Origin: Pseudomonadota bacterium
GTDB taxonomy: Bacteria; Desulfobacterota; Syntrophorhabdia; Syntrophorhabdales; Syntrophorhabdaceae
Direction: 5' to 3'
DNA: 64,000 bases
Assembly: GCA_026388255.1 (NCBI GenBank)
Contig: JAPLKC010000093.1
Coordinates: 1 to 64,000, forward strand
Part shown: one piece after another, positions 1 to 12,769 of the stretch
Layout of the letters: each line of letters opens with the position of its first letter
Position numbering within the stretch: the first letter of the stretch is position 1
Position numbers and translations under genes: made by a program
Notes under the pieces: generated by a model
The model's input: only the letters and a program-made list of their open reading frames with translations
Databases searched by the model: none
What the model was told of the DNA's origin: nothing

Positions 1-2969
1 TGGACTTAATGATTCCGGGGTCAGGACGTTGGCGCTGTCTCCTGTGGCCATACCGGCGTAACCGAAATGCCACGGCATTCCTACCTGTTCAATGGGTTTT
101 CCGTCAACAACGAAGGGTTTAAGACGGGAAGTAACCAGTGCGTAAGCCTCAATAGAACCTCTTTCAGTGCTTACACGAATCCGGTCGCCGTTTTTGACCC
201 CCTTTGTCTGGGCCAGTGATCTACTTATCTCTACAAACATGTCCGGAACCATTTCTACAAGCCATGGCAGACTGCGTGTCATGCTGCCGGTTTGCCAGTG
301 CTCGGTCATCCGGTAAGTAGTGCCGATAAAAGGATATTTGTTTATATCGCAACTGTCGTTGTTAGATAACACCACACAGGGATTGTTCTGTACTTTCGAG
401 AGAAGATTCCTGGCCGGACTTTCAATCGGTTCATAATGTTCAGGAAAAGGCCCGTCTTTCATAGTAATAGCATAGATGCGACCAACACCTTCGGAATTCA
501 TGATAAAAGGGTTGGCTCCTTTTTCATCGTCCACAGGTGGGGCGCCTCCATCGGGTACATCCCCTTGCCACTTCTTTTCAACAGGATTCCAGACAATAAC
601 AGGACGTTTCGGGTCAAACGGTTGTCCTGCCTTATTAACAGAGGCACGGTTGTAAAGGATACGCCGGTTTACGGGCCAGGACCATGCCCATTTCGGATAC
701 ATCCCAAGATTGTTGGGAAGGTCTGTGGAGTCGCGCCTGGCCATCATGTTCCCGTCTTTTGTGTATGACCCGCAATATATCCAGCAGCCCGACACTGTTG
801 ACCCGTCGTCCTGGAGCTGGGCAAAAGCCGGCACCTGATCTCCGGTTTTAAACTCCAGAGTTTTGTCTTTATCCTTAATGGCTGTATCGCGTGTAAAATA
901 TCCGTTGATTTCCCTGGCTACCCGGTGCACGTCCGGCTCATGACCATCGCCATAGTTCCATGCCATTTTTACAATCGGACCAGGGAAAGCCCCGCCCTCT
1001 TTTTTGTAAAGGGCTTTTATCTTTTTGTGGAACTGGTCGAGGATCCAGAGGTCACTTTTAGCTTCACCGGGTGGTTCTACTGCTGCATAACGCCACTGCG
1101 CCCACCGTCCGGAGTTGCTTATGCTTCCCTCTTTTTCCACGGATGCTGCTGCCGGAAGCATAAAGACTTCTGTCTTAATATCCTTTGGATTTACTCCTGG
1201 GCGCTTCCAGAAAATGGATGTTTCAGTTTCCCAGAGATCGACAGTGACGAGCCATTTGAGCTTCCCAAGCCCTTCACGGGCTTTGAGGGAGTTCGGTCCG
1301 CCTACGGCAGGGTTCATCCCCATACAAACCAGGCCTTCAATCTCTCCCTTCAAAATCTTGTGCATAGCCTGGACATAAGAATAGTTGCCGCTTCGTTTTG
1401 GCATATAATCATAACAGAAACTATTTTCAGCAGTTGCATTATCGCCCCACCATGCTTTGAGGAGGCTTATAATATATTTGCCGCCGTTCTGCCACCAGTT
1501 GGTGCTTTTAGACTCCTTTGACTTCGGGAAATATCTTCCGATGTATGCTTCGAGAGAGGTATCGCTGAAATCCGGCGATGCTATGTAACCCGGCAGAACA
1601 TGGAAGAGAAGGCCGAAGTCCGTAGAACCCTGAACATTGGATTCGCCGCGCATTGCGTTTACACCGCCACCGGCGATACCTACATTGCCGAGCAGCAATT
1701 GGAGCAGGGCAGTGGCGCGCACATTCTGAACCCCGTGGGTAGACTGGGTGATGCCCATAGCGTAAAGTATGGTACCTGCCTTGTCAGGTCTTCCTGTGCC
1801 GCAGAAAGCCTGAGCAACTTTGAGGTAGTCCTCTTTTTTTGCGCCCGTAACTGAGCAAACCATATCGACAGTGTAACGTGAGTAGTGCTTTTTCAGGAGC
1901 TGAAATATGCAGCGAGGGTCTGACAACGTCGGGTCGCGACGCGCTTTCCCTGATCCGTCCAGGGCATAGGCCCAGGACTTCATGTCATAAGCCTTTTCAC
2001 GGTCATCCCAGTTTGCAAACATCCCCTCCTTAAAGCCATACCCTTCGGTAACGATGAATGAGGCATTTGTATATTCTCTCACATACTCTTTGTGGATAAG
2101 GTTGTTCTGCAAAGCATAATTGATAAGCCCACCGAGAAAGGCAATGTCGGTTCCAGGTCTGGTGCGGGCATAAATATCAGCCTTTGAGGAAGTCCTTGTA
2201 TAACGTGGATCTACAGAGATGAGCGTTGCCCCTTTTTCCATGGCCGCCTCGATCCATTTAAAAGAGATCGGGTGATTTGCGACAGGATTACAGCCTATGG
2301 CCATAATGCAATCGCTGTTTTTCAGGTCGTTCCAATGATTTGTCATTGCGCCCCGTCCAAAAGAAGCCGCCAGACCGGCGACTGTAGACGAGTGTCAGAG
2401 GCGAGCCTGATGTTCTAAATACACTACGCCCATGGAACGGGCGAATTTACTTTCAAGGTAGCACTCTTCGTTATCGAGGCCTGCTCCGCCAAAGATGGCA
2501 ATGCCCTCGGTGCGGTTTACAGTATATAGATCACCGTCTTTCTTGTTGGTCTCCTTCAGTTTGAATGTCCGGTCACGTGTTTCTTTCATTAGCTTTGCTA
2601 TCCGGTCAAGAGACCAATCCCAGGATTTTTCTTCCCATTTTTCTGAGCCTGGGGCGCGGTACATTACTTTTTGAAGGCGCCGCTCATTATTTGCCACCTG
2701 GAACATGGCTTCACCCTTTGAACACAGCGAGCCCTGGTTGATCGGGCTTGAGTCATCCCCCTCAATATTGACGATCTTGCCGTCTTTAACGTGCACGATC
2801 ATGCTGCACCCAACTGCACAGAACGGGCACACAGTAGTTGTTGTTTTTAGACCTTTGGTTCGAAGCTCCGGTGAATCGAAATTGCTTGCACCGGCCGTTT
2901 TTCAGAAATCACAAGTCCGGCGGCTGCAACTCCGCCCCCAATAATGAACTTTCTTCTCGAAATATCCAT
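1..2969 (-). CDS. fdnG: Selenocysteine formate dehydrogenase, alpha (molybdopterin) subunit; partial, with apparent frameshift
   Basis: Catalytic subunit of a periplasmic formate dehydrogenase, oxidising formate to CO2 and passing electrons to FeS and cytochrome subunits (not in the window). The start at 2969 follows AAGGAG and gives a twin-arginine leader (SRRKF, residues 4-8). The mature part begins with an Fe4S4-binding CPFCAVGC motif and continues as one molybdopterin-oxidoreductase frame to the window edge, broken only by an in-frame TGA at 2395-2397 in the context ARL-TGA-HSSTVAGLA, where this family carries selenocysteine. About 989 codons are visible; E. coli FdnG has 1015 residues, so only the extreme C-terminus is missing. 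Odd: the leader and the mature frame are offset by one base; restoring one A in the A5 run at 2898-2902 joins them. The family is certain. Whether the frameshift is real or a sequencing error cannot be told from this sequence. Confidence 0.9.
2366..2397 (-). promoter_or_regulatory. Selenocysteine UGA codon with bacterial SECIS hairpin
   Basis: The UGA at 2397-2395 is followed, after 18 nucleotides, by the loop GGUCU at 2376-2372. That loop is closed by a 6-bp stem, GUCGCC (2382-2377) with GGCGGC (2371-2366), containing one G-U pair. E. coli fdhF has the same GGUCU apical loop at the same 18-nucleotide distance, and there it binds SelB. This supports recoding to Sec rather than termination. 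No selA, selB, selC or selD gene lies in the window. Confidence 0.85.
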
Positions 2970-3386: not shown

Positions 3387-4481
3387 CTAATCCCCGAAAG
3401 ACACCCCGATTTCCCGTGCAGTTCTTACGGTATCGCAATCAACGGAAACATTCCTTATTTTCCCGATTACCTCCTCAAGGGGGATGGCCTTTACTTCGGG
3501 AGGGTCAAGGGCTACCATAGTGCCGAATTTCTTTGCTTCAATCATCCTTACAGCGGCTGCACCGAAGCGAAGCGCTATGAGCCGGTCAAATGTCGTTGGC
3601 GATCCTCCACGCTGCAGATGTCCAAGTACGATTGATCTTGTGTCCTTTCCGGTCCTCTTAGAGATTTCTTTGGCTAAGAACTCGGCAATTCCTCCAAGCA
3701 CAACATCTTGACGTCCTGTTTCGCCCATCCCTTTATCAACGGCCTGTCCTCCAAGAGAGGCTGCCCCTTCAGCAGCAACCACTATAGAGTACTTTTGTCC
3801 ATGTAATTCACGATCCATGATGTGTTCGCAAACACGATCAATATCAAAGGGTATTTCGGGAATCAGGATGACATCCGCTGCACCCGATAAACCGCTGTTC
3901 AGCGCAATCCATCCCGCATGCCTTCCCATAACTTCAACCACCATGACTCGTTCATGGGACTTCGCTGTAGAGTGAAGCCGATCTATTGCCTCGGTGGCAA
4001 TGCTTACTGCTGTGTCAAAACCGAATGTAATTACCGTGCCGCAAAGATCGTTGTCAATAGTCTTTGGTACACCAATTACAGGCATGCCCTTTTTGTAAAA
4101 GTCGTAAGCAATGGAAAGGCTTCCGTCTCCTCCCACTGCCACCAGACAGTCGAAATGTAGCCTTTTGAAATTTTCCACAACTTTATCCGATACATCGCGT
4201 ATCTCTGTTTCGCCGGCCAGATTGGTAATGGGCATCTGGAATGGGTTTCCGCGATTTGTTGTACCCAGTATTGTGCCTCCGATATTTGCAATATGATGCA
4301 CCTTGTCCGGGGTGAGAGGAATGATTTCGTCCGTGTTTAAGAGACCTGCATATCCATTTTTAATGCCGTATGTATCCCAGCCTCTGCTGTTTGCGGCCAA
4401 AACCACTGCCTCTATAACTGCGTTAAGCCCCGGTGCATCACCACCACCGGTATTGATTGCAATCTTCATCCCCTTTTCCAT
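3387..4481 (-). CDS. pfkA: 6-phosphofructokinase, group III type (Gly104/Lys124)
   Basis: Phosphorylates fructose 6-phosphate to the 1,6-bisphosphate. The 364 residues carry the family landmarks in order: GGGDAPGLNAVI near the N-terminus, GGDGS at the phosphoryl-donor site, PKTIDND at the substrate and catalytic site, and MGRHAGWIAL. The donor-determining positions (E. coli numbering) read Gly104 and Lys124. Gly104 favours ATP, while Lys124 is shared with pyrophosphate enzymes; this mix is known from group III ATP enzymes such as that of Streptomyces coelicolor. The start at 4481 follows AGGGGG at good spacing; an ATG four codons further in is an alternative. It diverges from the ahbB-hemL train. 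A second group III enzyme lies at 11528-12769. ATP is the likelier donor, but pyrophosphate cannot be excluded from sequence. Confidence 0.9.
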   Translation of the reverse strand: MEKGMKIAINTGGGDAPGLNAVIEAVVLAANSRGWDTYGIKNGYAGLLNTDEIIPLTPDKVHHIANIGGTILGTTNRGNPFQMPITNLAGETEIRDVSDKVVENFKRLHFDCLVAVGGDGSLSIAYDFYKKGMPVIGVPKTIDNDLCGTVITFGFDTAVSIATEAIDRLHSTAKSHERVMVVEVMGRHAGWIALNSGLSGAADVILIPEIPFDIDRVCEHIMDRELHGQKYSIVVAAEGAASLGGQAVDKGMGETGRQDVVLGGIAEFLAKEISKRTGKDTRSIVLGHLQRGGSPTTFDRLIALRFGAAAVRMIEAKKFGTMVALDPPEVKAIPLEEVIGKIRNVSVDCDTVRTAREIGVSFGD

Positions 4482-4707: not shown

Positions 4708-5178
4708 GTGAAAATAAACAGCATGTATAAGATTTTGAAAAACATACCCGGTGATTTCCCAATCATTGAGAGACCATACAAGGAAATGGCAGACAAAACA
4801 AGCATTAGTGAGGTCGAGCTATTGTCCGTACTCAATAAATTTAAAAAAGAAGGCATAATACGAAGAATCGCCGCTGTGCTTTATCATCGAAGGGCTCTAT
4901 ACACGCATAATGCAATGGTTGTCTGGAAGGTGAAGGATGCTGACATTGACAGGGTAGGGGGCATAATGGCTTCTTTCCCTGAGGTGAGCCACTGTTATGA
5001 GAGGGAAAAGGGAGGTTACTGGGATTACAATGTATATACCATGATACACGGAAAAAGCCTGGAAGACTGTAAGGAAATTGCCGGGCGCATATCAGATAGG
5101 ACCGGTATAAAAGACTTTCAAATGTTTTTCAGCCGGAGAGAATTTAAAAAGATACCGTTAAGGATGATTTATGAATAG
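4708..5178 (+). CDS. ahbB: Siroheme decarboxylase subunit, AhbB-like (Lrp/AsnC fold)
   Basis: 156 residues with an N-terminal winged-helix region of Lrp/AsnC type and a C-terminal alpha/beta domain. The sequence RRIAAVLYHRRA, then MVVWKV, VSHCYERE and YNVYTMIHG, matches the Ahb siroheme decarboxylase family. Those enzymes convert siroheme to didecarboxysiroheme in the alternative heme and heme d1 pathways. They usually work as an AhbA/AhbB heterodimer; only one subunit gene is visible here. The coding region overlaps hemL by 8 bases, which supports translational coupling and a tetrapyrrole role rather than gene regulation. The alternative reading is a plain Lrp-type regulator, which I consider less likely because of the conserved motifs. 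Confidence 0.82.
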   Translation: MKINSMYKILKNIPGDFPIIERPYKEMADKTSISEVELLSVLNKFKKEGIIRRIAAVLYHRRALYTHNAMVVWKVKDADIDRVGGIMASFPEVSHCYEREKGGYWDYNVYTMIHGKSLEDCKEIAGRISDRTGIKDFQMFFSRREFKKIPLRMIYE

Positions 5179-6469
5179 AAAAATATCGAGTGAATTATAT
5201 GCAGAAGCAAGGCAATACATGCCTGCCGGTGTAAACAGTCCTGTAAGGGCTTTTCAATCTGTTCACGATACGCCGTTTTATGTGAAAAAAGCCAAAGGTG
5301 CATACCTTTTTGATGTGGATGGAAACACCTACCTTGATTATGTTGCTTCATGGGGCGCAATAATCCTCGGACATGCCCACAACGGCCTTATTGAAGAAGT
5401 AAAGACAGCGCTTGATGAAGGCACAAGCTTCGGTGCCTGCCATCCCAACGAGATTAAACTGGCAAAGCTTATTACAGAAGCATTCCCTTCAATAAATCTT
5501 CTGAGGCTGACAAGCTCCGGCACAGAGGCAACAATGAGCGCCATAAGGCTTGCAAGAGGTTTTACCGGAAAAAACGGTGTCATAAAGTTTAAGGGCTGCT
5601 ATCACGGGCATGTTGACAGTCTTCTTGTAAAAGCAGGTTCAGGTCTGGCTACCTATGGAATACCTGACAGCGGGGGTATCCCGGAAGTACTTGCAAAATG
5701 TACATATGTTGCAGATTTTAATCATATCGATACGGTGCGGAATATTGTCAGAGAAAACAAGGATATTGCCTGTATCATACTTGAACCTGTCATGGGCAAT
5801 ATGGGGCTTATCCTGCCCGGAAAGGGATTTCTTGAGGATGTGCAGGAGATATGCAAACAAGAAGGGATTTTACTTATATTTGACGAAGTCATAACAGGCT
5901 TCAGGGTTGCATACGGCGGAGCGCAGCACATTTACGGGATTGATCCTGATATAACATGTCTTGGAAAAATAATCGGCGGAGGTTTTCCTATTGGCGCCTT
6001 TGGAGGCAAAAAAGAGATTATGAATATGATTGCCCCTCTCGGTGATGTTTATCAGGCTGGCACATTGTCGGGCAATCCCATTGCAGTAAGAGCAGGGATT
6101 TATGTGCTTGAGCATCTGAGAAAAAACAGCGACATATATAGTTCAATGGATAAAAAGATTGAAATGTTAAAAACACAGTTGCTTCAAATTGCGGATAAGT
6201 TCGGTATTCCTTACAAGATTAACCATATTACCGGGATGTTCACAGGATTTTTCTCCGAAAATAATGTCAACGATTACGAGGCCGCTCTGACATCAAACCG
6301 TGCGCTTTATGAACAGTTTTTCAAATTAATGCTTGAAGAGGGAATATTTTTTGCTCCAAGCCCATTTGAGGCTTCATTCTTAACAGCCTCTTACGGGGAC
6401 AAGGAATTATTGAGGACCATAGATGCCTGCGAAAAGGTTTTTAAAACGCTTAAAGGTTTTTATAAATGA
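5171..6469 (+). CDS. hemL: Glutamate-1-semialdehyde 2,1-aminomutase
   Basis: Converts glutamate-1-semialdehyde to 5-aminolevulinate in the C5 route to tetrapyrroles, using PLP. The 432 residues are the usual length. The N-terminus reads PAGVNSPVRAF, SSGTEATMSAIRLARG binds the cofactor phosphate, FDEVITGFR is the PLP-ring-binding stretch, and CLGKIIGGGFPIGAFGG carries the Schiff-base lysine. It overlaps ahbB by 8 bases and alr by 4. The preceding pathway enzyme, glutamyl-tRNA reductase (hemA), is encoded 22 kb away on the other strand, so the early pathway is split between two operons. Confidence 0.96.
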   Translation: MNRKISSELYAEARQYMPAGVNSPVRAFQSVHDTPFYVKKAKGAYLFDVDGNTYLDYVASWGAIILGHAHNGLIEEVKTALDEGTSFGACHPNEIKLAKLITEAFPSINLLRLTSSGTEATMSAIRLARGFTGKNGVIKFKGCYHGHVDSLLVKAGSGLATYGIPDSGGIPEVLAKCTYVADFNHIDTVRNIVRENKDIACIILEPVMGNMGLILPGKGFLEDVQEICKQEGILLIFDEVITGFRVAYGGAQHIYGIDPDITCLGKIIGGGFPIGAFGGKKEIMNMIAPLGDVYQAGTLSGNPIAVRAGIYVLEHLRKNSDIYSSMDKKIEMLKTQLLQIADKFGIPYKINHITGMFTGFFSENNVNDYEAALTSNRALYEQFFKLMLEEGIFFAPSPFEASFLTASYGDKELLRTIDACEKVFKTLKGFYK

Positions 6470-7599
6470 TTGAAATGAAAAACCATAGAGCTACTGCATA
6501 TATAGATTTAAAGGTTCTTGAAGAAAATTATTGGATGATAAAGTCACGACTGCCTGTGGATGTGAAAATACTCTGTGTCGTGAAAGCCGATGCATATGGC
6601 CACGGTATGATTCAAGTCGCCGGAAAACTTGCATCTATAGGCGCGGATTACTTAGGTGTTGCATTAATCAGTGAGGGTATGCACCTAAGGTCTCATAACG
6701 TGAGTATCCCGGTGCTTGTGATGGGCGGCATGATGCCCTGGGAGGACGTTCAACAGGCATTAGACTATGACCTTATGCTCGTTGTACATGATATGGATAT
6801 GTTAAAAAGGATAAAGGATGCCTGTACACTTCAGGAAAAATCTATCAGTATCCATCTGAAAGTTGATACCGGGATGGGAAGGCTTGGTTTTCACCCTGAT
6901 AATATGCCTTCTGTGATTGAGGAGATAAAAGGCTCAAAATATATCAAGGTGGAAGGCTTAATGAGCCATTTTTCTTCTTCAGAGATAAGGGATGCATACG
7001 GGATGGCGCAGGTAAAGGCTTTTAAATATATTTTGCAGTTGTTCCAAAATAGTGGTATTAAAACAGAACTTTCTCATATGGCAAATAGCGGGGCGATAAG
7101 TAATTATCCTGAAGCATATTTCGACATGGTCAGAGTCGGAATCAACCTTTACGGATCTTGCACTGCTGTTGAATTAAAAGAAAAACTCCCTGTTAAGCAG
7201 GTAATGAAGCTGATATCAAGGATTGCATTGATAAAAGAGTTTCCTTCGGGATATTCGCTGAGCTACGGGAGATCTTATACTACGGAAAAGAGTGTAAAGA
7301 TAGCATGTATACCTGTAGGTTATGCTGACGGTTATCCGAGGGCTCTATCAAACAAAGGTTCTGTATTGATAAGAGATAAAAGGTGCAATGTGGTTGGAAA
7401 GGTTTGTATGGATTGGATATTGGTTGATGTTACGGATATTGAGGACGTACATGCAGGCGACGAGGTGATTTTACTGGGAAGAGGCAATACCGACACAATT
7501 ACTGCCGACGAGATAGCGCAGTTGACAGGTACTATCCCTTACGAAATACTCTGTAAAATATCCGGGAGAGTCCCGAGGATTTATCACGAGGCATTATGA
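6466..7599 (+). CDS. alr: Alanine racemase
   Basis: PLP enzyme interconverting L- and D-alanine for peptidoglycan. The 377 residues show the lysine motif VVKADAYGHG near residue 40, the barrel motif VDTGMGRLGF, MANSGAI, the active-site tyrosine region SYGRSYT, and the C-terminal domain ending in ISGRVPRIY. It overlaps hemL by 4 bases (ATGA) and mlaE by 4, so it is embedded in a tightly packed transcript that joins tetrapyrrole synthesis, wall precursor and outer-membrane lipid transport. Confidence 0.96.
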   Translation: MIEMKNHRATAYIDLKVLEENYWMIKSRLPVDVKILCVVKADAYGHGMIQVAGKLASIGADYLGVALISEGMHLRSHNVSIPVLVMGGMMPWEDVQQALDYDLMLVVHDMDMLKRIKDACTLQEKSISIHLKVDTGMGRLGFHPDNMPSVIEEIKGSKYIKVEGLMSHFSSSEIRDAYGMAQVKAFKYILQLFQNSGIKTELSHMANSGAISNYPEAYFDMVRVGINLYGSCTAVELKEKLPVKQVMKLISRIALIKEFPSGYSLSYGRSYTTEKSVKIACIPVGYADGYPRALSNKGSVLIRDKRCNVVGKVCMDWILVDVTDIEDVHAGDEVILLGRGNTDTITADEIAQLTGTIPYEILCKISGRVPRIYHEAL

Positions 7600-8370: not shown

Positions 8371-9135
8371 ATGGATGATATAGCCATAAGATTAATAGAT
8401 ATCCATAAAAGCTTCGGTAATCAAAAAGTGCTTGATGGAATAAATCTTGAGATAGAAATAGGGAAAACTACGGTAATAATCGGAAAAAGCGGAGGCGGGA
8501 AAAGTGTTCTGCTGAAGCATGTAATCGGACTTTTAAAACCGGATAAAGGCGAAATATGGATAGACGGTGTTGAAATTACAAGATTAAACGAGAGAGATCT
8601 GAATGATGTACGAAAAAAGTTCGGAATGCTTTTTCAGGAAGCAGCCCTCTTTGACTCTATGGATGTTTTTGATAATATAGCCTTCCCGCTGCGTGAACGT
8701 ACGAAGATGACTGAAACAGAAATAAAGGGGATTGTTGAGGATAGGCTCAAGCAGGTTGGTCTTTTTAATGTTACCGAAAAGATACCGTCCGAACTGTCTG
8801 GCGGTATGAGAAAAAGAGTAGGACTTGCAAGAGCCCTTGCCCTTGATCCGGGTATAATACTATTTGATGAGCCGACGAGCGCCCTTGATCCTATTATATC
8901 GTTAACAATATTGGATTTAATAAAGGAGACTCAGACATATTTTAAAAAAACATACCTTGTAATAAGCCACGATATACTCGGTATGTTCAGGATTGCCGAT
9001 AAAGTTGCCATGTTGAGCAATGGCAGGATTATAGAATACGGAACGCCCCTTGAAATAAAGCAAAGCAGCAATGATGACACCAGGGAGTTCTTGAGGGCGA
9101 CAAAAATACCGGGGTTTGCAGGAGGAGATATATGA
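8371..9135 (+). CDS. mlaF: Phospholipid ABC transporter ATP-binding protein, MlaF family
   Basis: ATPase partner of the MlaE permease. The 254 residues show Walker A GKSGGGKS, a Q-loop in MLFQEAALFDSM (the FDS form typical of MlaF), the signature ELSGGMRKRVGLARALA, Walker B IILFDEPTSALDP, and the switch histidine in VISHD. It ends 4 bases inside mlaD (ATGA overlap). Confidence 0.96.
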   Translation: MDDIAIRLIDIHKSFGNQKVLDGINLEIEIGKTTVIIGKSGGGKSVLLKHVIGLLKPDKGEIWIDGVEITRLNERDLNDVRKKFGMLFQEAALFDSMDVFDNIAFPLRERTKMTETEIKGIVEDRLKQVGLFNVTEKIPSELSGGMRKRVGLARALALDPGIILFDEPTSALDPIISLTILDLIKETQTYFKKTYLVISHDILGMFRIADKVAMLSNGRIIEYGTPLEIKQSSNDDTREFLRATKIPGFAGGDI

Positions 9136-11527: not shown

Positions 11528-12769
11528 TTACTTGAGCAGATAATCGAATTTCGACCTGAATTCTTCAGGTTTTAGCTTTGCTGTACTTGCAATATGTTTT
11601 AAACGATCTCCTTCAAAATCTTCCTTCTCGATTCTAATCATATATTTCCTTGCAACTTCATATGTTTCGGAATTGATATCTACCTTCCGTACTTTAGAGC
11701 CGCCACATGAATCCAGCATTTCAGTAAAAGAGATGGGGATAATATGGTCCTCATACACAGCTATCATCGAACCTGACCCGCCCTTCAGAAGGAAACGTAT
11801 TGCACCGTATCCGAGGTTTCTTGTGTATTCAATGTCGTATGGTATAGGGCTTGCTGCCCTTAATTCATATCCTATGTTCATACTGACAATAGGGGCGGAT
11901 ATATCCATGTCATGGAGGTTCTTCCTTACGAGTGATTTGAGAATCCTGCCGAGTTGAATATCGGACAGCCTTGTTTTACCGGATATTTCATCCTTTTCGA
12001 CATTTTCGCATCTGCTAAGCTCTTCTTCATCAAACTTTTCAGCTAAACCTTCAGCTATGATAGCAACCCCGTAATCTTTTCCCATGGAGAGCCTTTTTAT
12101 TATTGAACCGGTCAGGATATCGGCTATTTTTTGTATTGAAACCTTCTGCTCTGTAAACTCTTCAGGGATGAGCGATATCGTTGAGCCGGATGCCTTGCCG
12201 ATTCCAAGGGCCAAATGGCCTGTATGTCTTCCCATGGTGCTGATGAAATACCATCTTCCCATTGTCCTTGCATCTTCAATTATATTGTTGACAAGCTCGA
12301 CTCCAACATGCCTTGCGGTCTGATATCCGAAGGTTGAAATGCCGCCCGGTAAGGGAATATCATTGTCTATTGTCTTTGGAGTATGAACAACGTTTATGGA
12401 ACCCCTTCCTTCTCTCTCTATCCAGCTTGCCATATAGAGGGTGCCCTCACCCCCTATTGTTATAAGATATTTTATACCGATCTGCTTCAGTGTAGACAGC
12501 AAGGTTTTAAATTTTTGACGGGCGTTTTCCGGGGCATCACGGGATGTTCTGAGGATCGATCCACCTGTAGCATGTAGTCTCGAAACATCATCAATTGTAA
12601 GCGGGATAATGCAGTCTTTGTTTCCATCGAAGAGGGGCTTGAATCCCCCTATAATGCCGACAACCTTTTTCCCTTGATTTACAGCTTCAATTGTTGCGGC
12701 GCTTATGACTCCGTTAATTCCAGGCGCTGGCCCACCGCCAACTATTATTCCGACTGTATCTTTTGCCAT
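11528..12769 (-). CDS. Second phosphofructokinase, long group III type
   Basis: A 413-residue phosphofructokinase-superfamily enzyme. Motifs are VGGGPAPGINGVISA, IGGEGTLYMA (donor site), HTPKTIDNDIPLP (catalytic aspartates) and TMGRHTGHLALGIG. The donor-determining positions again read Gly104/Lys124, and the acidic residue before them is Glu instead of Asp. The protein is longer than the bacterial ATP enzymes (about 320 residues) and resembles the set annotated as 'pyrophosphate or ATP dependent phosphofructokinase'. It is transcribed alone, convergent with the mla operon. Together with 3387-4481 the genome has two such enzymes, perhaps serving glycolysis and a reversible or pentose-phosphate role; the donor of each is unknown. 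Confidence 0.86.
   Translation of the reverse strand: MAKDTVGIIVGGGPAPGINGVISAATIEAVNQGKKVVGIIGGFKPLFDGNKDCIIPLTIDDVSRLHATGGSILRTSRDAPENARQKFKTLLSTLKQIGIKYLITIGGEGTLYMASWIEREGRGSINVVHTPKTIDNDIPLPGGISTFGYQTARHVGVELVNNIIEDARTMGRWYFISTMGRHTGHLALGIGKASGSTISLIPEEFTEQKVSIQKIADILTGSIIKRLSMGKDYGVAIIAEGLAEKFDEEELSRCENVEKDEISGKTRLSDIQLGRILKSLVRKNLHDMDISAPIVSMNIGYELRAASPIPYDIEYTRNLGYGAIRFLLKGGSGSMIAVYEDHIIPISFTEMLDSCGGSKVRKVDINSETYEVARKYMIRIEKEDFEGDRLKHIASTAKLKPEEFRSKFDYLLK

Follow-up and report, generated by a model that had tools for sequence, protein, structure and literature searches.

Few bacterial selenoproteins are as widespread as the alpha subunit of formate dehydrogenase, which is present in 67 of the 75 selenocysteine (Sec)-using organisms counted in PMC1794560. 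The bacterial SECIS consensus set out in the Fig. 2 legend of PMC13188914 has an apical loop of 3–9 nt with G in the first two loop positions, an upper stem of 4–16 bp, 16–37 nt from UGA to the apical loop and a minimum free energy (MFE) of at most −7.5 kcal/mol. For the Escherichia coli fdhF element, the review PMC8659212 gives U17, G23 and U24 as invariant in fdhF numbering, with U17 and G23 as SelB binding sites. Among the literature retrieved on Syntrophorhabdus formate dehydrogenase and selenocysteine, no paper was, by its title, on the gene described here.

We analysed a window of 64,000 nt (the whole stretch of DNA under study) from a draft genome that is 98.29% complete and assembled in 147 contigs. 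The gene of interest lies on the minus strand at the start of the window. On the basis of sequence comparison, it very probably encodes a formate dehydrogenase-N alpha subunit with selenocysteine as the active-site residue, the UGA being decoded via a SECIS hairpin. As such, it is a real but ordinary further case of textbook Sec recoding.

Gene, UGA codon and hairpin

1–2880, minus strand: catalytic part of a formate dehydrogenase-N alpha subunit (fdnG/fdhA type), 960 codons (P0001) including a single in-frame UGA; the contig end cuts the gene short
2395–2397, minus strand: UGA, putatively read as selenocysteine, codon 162 of 960 in P0001, in the context EHQARL-U-HSSTVAGL
2365–2383, minus strand: candidate apical bacterial SECIS hairpin, 7 pairs (2383–2377 with 2371–2365, one of them U-G) closing the loop GGUCU at 2376–2372
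2354–2390, minus strand: lower stem extending the hairpin (2390–2385 with 2359–2354), tentatively predicted from the MFE fold

With the UGA read through, a single frame spans P0001, and sequence identity to solved structures settles the family to which this predicted protein belongs. P0001 matched TIGR01553 (formate dehydrogenase-N alpha subunit) with 1296.4 bits against a curated cut-off of 814.2, and contains the Pfam domains Molybdop_Fe4S4, Molybdopterin and Molydop_binding, which are those of molybdopterin oxidoreductases. The best PDB match is the alpha chain of a Sec-containing formate dehydrogenase (1118.5 bits), and the alignment to solved Sec formate dehydrogenases covers P0001 residues 10 to 957, with the UGA opposite X/C. 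These structures (9qm0, 6sdr and others, and E. coli FDH-N, 1kqf) have Sec at the same place and are separated from the window gene by ordinary divergence only, save that the latter is truncated and has a broken leader frame.

The stem of the hairpin can be drawn with 6 pairs (2382–2377 with 2371–2366, one U-G) or with 7, the seventh being A-U. Only the four pairs adjoining the loop are uninterrupted Watson–Crick pairs, and a search for inverted repeats with a 6-base exact seed found none at this site. Folding of the apical 24 bases gives an MFE of −11.1 kcal/mol, and folding of the 44-base stretch from the UGA onwards gives −15.4 kcal/mol (z −2.13, with 2 of 200 shuffles folding equally well). 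The hairpin thus falls within all four constraints of the PMC13188914 legend (loop of 5 and stem of 7 with one U-G; loop GGUCU; 18 nt; −11.1/−15.4 kcal/mol). A permissive Rfam search matched SECIS_3 (RF01989) with a score of 36.1 bits (E 3e-6 over 1,001 bases), which is below the gathering score of 63, and at the gathering level nothing was returned at the hairpin site. Below the apex, several relatives have other predicted folds.

An earlier note on this DNA had described an in-frame UGA, an 18-base spacer, a GGUCU loop on a 6-bp stem and the geometry of E. coli fdhF. The UGA (2397–2395), spacer and loop (2376–2372) were all recovered on the minus strand, and the six pairs can indeed be drawn, although one is a U-G wobble. 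Measured in E. coli K-12 (NC_000913), fdhF likewise has 18 bases from UGA to GGTCT, and the window hairpin shares its U17, G23 and U24 and its small apical form, with 23 of 42 bases identical between the two elements. The loop, however, is predicted to have 5 bases here and 4 in fdhF, and U17 is predicted to be U-G paired here but is bulged in fdhF. The host enzymes also differ, being of FDH-N type in the window and formate dehydrogenase H for fdhF. By analogy, the window hairpin may work like the fdhF element, and we do not class it as the exact fdhF structure. The note had also anticipated that a simple gene caller would split the gene at 2395, as is borne out by the standard-code list of open reading frames (ORFs), in which ORF 2395–2832 closes at 2395 and the next opens at 2346.

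The window contains 53 copies of GGTCT on its plus strand and 55 on its minus strand, of which only the one at 2376–2372 tops a stem with six or more pairs. When the same residues were recoded with synonymous codons drawn from the gene’s own usage, a GGTCT loop on six or more pairs arose in the same register in 3943 of 200,000 draws (2.0%), and one on seven or more pairs in 931 of 200,000 (0.5%). The protein sequence itself therefore makes a GGTCT hairpin fairly likely, and because 2% of draws yield one, its weight as evidence is modest when taken by itself; conservation argues more strongly for a SECIS. Compared with the same-genus genome G001, the gene has 250 differences in 2880 bases and none in the 93 bases around the UGA (2326–2418), a difference-free stretch matched in 25 of 20,000 codon permutations.

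Homologous sites and two hairpin registers

Searching 148 genomes of the relatives set with P0001 gave matches at E ≤ 1e-100 in 59, including the genome of origin. We examined 148 loci from this search, from a scan of genome contigs (80 of 466 loci kept) and from the genome of origin, and 147 had the homologous site, occupied by UGA in 140 and by a Cys codon in 7 (4 TGT, 3 TGC). Some loci are probably the same contig twice (L037/L105, L038/L106), so hairpins were counted over 110 distinct 45-base sequences, comprising 103 with UGA and 7 with Cys.

Two hairpin registers account for 101 of the 103 distinct UGA sequences, leaving 2 with neither. Register A, that of the window gene (at least 4 pairs), is present in 56, and register B, with a GGC or GGG loop 23 bases after the UGA and a stem of up to 9 pairs, in 45. 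Six of the 7 Cys sequences have neither register, and one keeps register B. Loops in register A are GGTCT (41), AGTTT (11), AGTCT (3) and GGGCT (1); in the stem, pairs 20:26 and 19:27 are invariant, 17:29 is CG, TA, GT or GC, and the outer pairs often fail. Since the proteins are conserved at the hairpin, changes in base pairs carry limited weight on their own. In Syntrophorhabdaceae and Geobacteraceae, the formate dehydrogenases (L105–L116) are 74–78% identical to the window protein and use the same register, differing by sequence divergence only.

A FastTree tree was built with 141 rows from the 147 loci that have the site (one lacked a long enough match and five identical rows were merged). 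It implies at least four register changes, a rough figure only, with 31 of 138 inner branches left open and some branches long. Both registers occur in a single genome, G112 (L080 and L096). Literature on SECIS loops and registers in FdhA contained, in titles and the starts of abstracts, nothing specific to two registers, and we claim no novelty from that result. The Cys sequence that keeps register B is a TGC formate dehydrogenase (L069, genome G115) with a hairpin of 8 pairs, likely a SECIS remnant of a Sec-to-Cys change; such remnants in Cys homologues are described in PMC1794560.

Selenocysteine machinery of the genome

selA: contig C19, 572.7 bits
selB: contig C96, 373.4 bits, with SelB winged-helix domains
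tRNA-Sec (selC): contig C43, 74.1 bits with the covariance model, anticodon TCA by ARAGORN
selD: contig C36, 374.5 bits, with an in-frame UGA of its own
Second Sec formate dehydrogenase, soluble type: contig C101 (L066, 3542–6241), with UGA at the same site

The complete Sec-decoding set was found in the draft genome, on four separate contigs. The earlier note had predicted SelA–D elsewhere in the genome and had named the absence of selB and tRNA-Sec as what would speak against recoding; selA, selB, a tRNA-Sec with a TCA anticodon and selD are all present. Its interpretation of the UGA as selenocysteine draws support from the hairpin, from homology (140 UGA and 7 Cys among 147 sites) and from this decoding set. 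During translation, the UGA at 2397–2395 would be decoded by Sec-tRNA-Sec carried by SelB, which would be held by the hairpin directly 3′ of the codon, and the Sec residue would ligate Mo or W in the enzyme. SelB binding, Sec insertion, the catalytic role and Tat export follow established knowledge of the family.

The UGA of selD is followed by a hairpin with a GGC loop 17 bases on. Given this loop, and the presence of both registers in G112, one SelB probably reads both kinds of hairpin. The second Sec formate dehydrogenase is 41% identical to P0001 over the best stretch and has the same apical hairpin, with identical bases from GTCGCC to GGCGGC. Beside it lie a partner resembling NuoE/F and a gene that looks like a formate/nitrite transporter, both named by eye from their translations.

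Of 60 genomes in the relatives set, 49 have a tRNA-Sec match above the cut-off. A UGA formate dehydrogenase (L040) is present in genome G033, a draft in about 350 contigs, and the best tRNA-Sec match of that genome (E 1e-7) is absent among the over-cut-off matches listed, which goes against a strict one-to-one rule between UGA formate dehydrogenases and tRNA-Sec.

Leader frame, contig end and competing readings

2847–2969, minus strand: reading frame of the Tat leader (MDISRRKF...), which in the present assembly differs from the frame of the catalytic part
1–139, minus strand: 139-base overlap with contig C52, which carries the gene end, a 4Fe-4S subunit and a membrane subunit (named by eye)

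The leader matched Pfam TAT_signal at 17 bits, below its cut-off, and contains a five-A run at 2902–2898. It is a net one base short of its counterpart in G001, where the leader is in frame. A functional exported FDH-N alpha subunit needs an in-frame Tat leader, and the present assembly does not have one; because leader and catalytic part differ in frame, the gene as written would give no exported enzyme. The break, a reading problem unrelated to the UGA, matters for the function of this copy and leaves its family membership untouched. Differences from G001 fall mostly at third codon positions (36, 22 and 192 by position) and most codon changes are synonymous (174 of 223 codons), so that the cause at the leader is likely to be either an assembly error or a mutation that arose very recently. 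Sequencing or assembly error at a homopolymer run is a common cause of frame breaks in draft assemblies.

The gene runs off the contig end, a point that the earlier note does not mention, nor does it mention the leader break or the U-G wobble. The G001 contig breaks at the same place, a 141-base run (window 1–141) is identical in both same-genus genomes, and in each assembly a further contig continues from the same 139 bases (L065 1–139; L186). Most likely, the break reflects a fork in the assembly graph between two species of one sample, and the assignment of C52 to this genome, as against G001, is not certain. The order alpha, 4Fe-4S subunit, membrane subunit, as in the window gene plus C52, is found in relatives L106 and L108. 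Elsewhere in the window, two genes appear phosphofructokinase-like by eye from their translations (3387–4481 and 11528–12769).

The leader break is the ground for regarding the gene as a decaying pseudogene, in which the UGA still stands over a working SECIS although the gene has already been killed in this strain by the loss of one base from the Tat leader. Leader (2969–2847) and catalytic part do lie in different frames, and the same-genus copy in G001 is in frame. Yet the 959 remaining codons of 960 are open, the third-position and synonymous bias against G001 indicates that selection acted until recently, and the break sits at the five-A run, so that we consider decay improbable, if the most serious of the alternatives. 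Far less probable still is a gene that needs two recodings, Sec insertion at the UGA together with a −1 slip on the five-A run. Its sole support is the out-of-frame leader, and in G001, the one same-genus genome examined, the leader is in frame; if true, the slip would divide the product between exported and unexported forms.

Two further readings concern the UGA itself, and we give almost no credence to either. Were it a true stop, with the hairpin a by-product of the amino-acid sequence VAGLAA, the synonymous draws would explain the GGTCT hairpin at their 2% rate, but not the 798 codons beyond the UGA that still match the formate dehydrogenase family, nor the retention of UGA at 140 of 147 sites and the sel genes in the genome, nor the lack of either register in 6 of 7 distinct Cys homologues. 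An organism-wide change of code that made UGA another amino acid has as its sole support that the frame is open on read-through, and has a vanishingly small probability: the top-scoring tRNA-Sec match, whose anticodon is TCA, is identified as tRNA-Sec by both the covariance model and ARAGORN, and several neighbouring genes at 5171–6469, 6466–7599 and 8371–9135 stop at UGA under table 11 and would be extended if it were sense, which contradicts this candidate.

Selenocysteine recoding of a formate dehydrogenase-N alpha gene thus very probably applies here. The two registers within the formate dehydrogenase family, both present in one genome, make a modest comparative point. For annotation, a plain gene caller splits the gene, with the consequence that a formate-oxidising (or CO2-reducing) enzyme would be missed or called broken.
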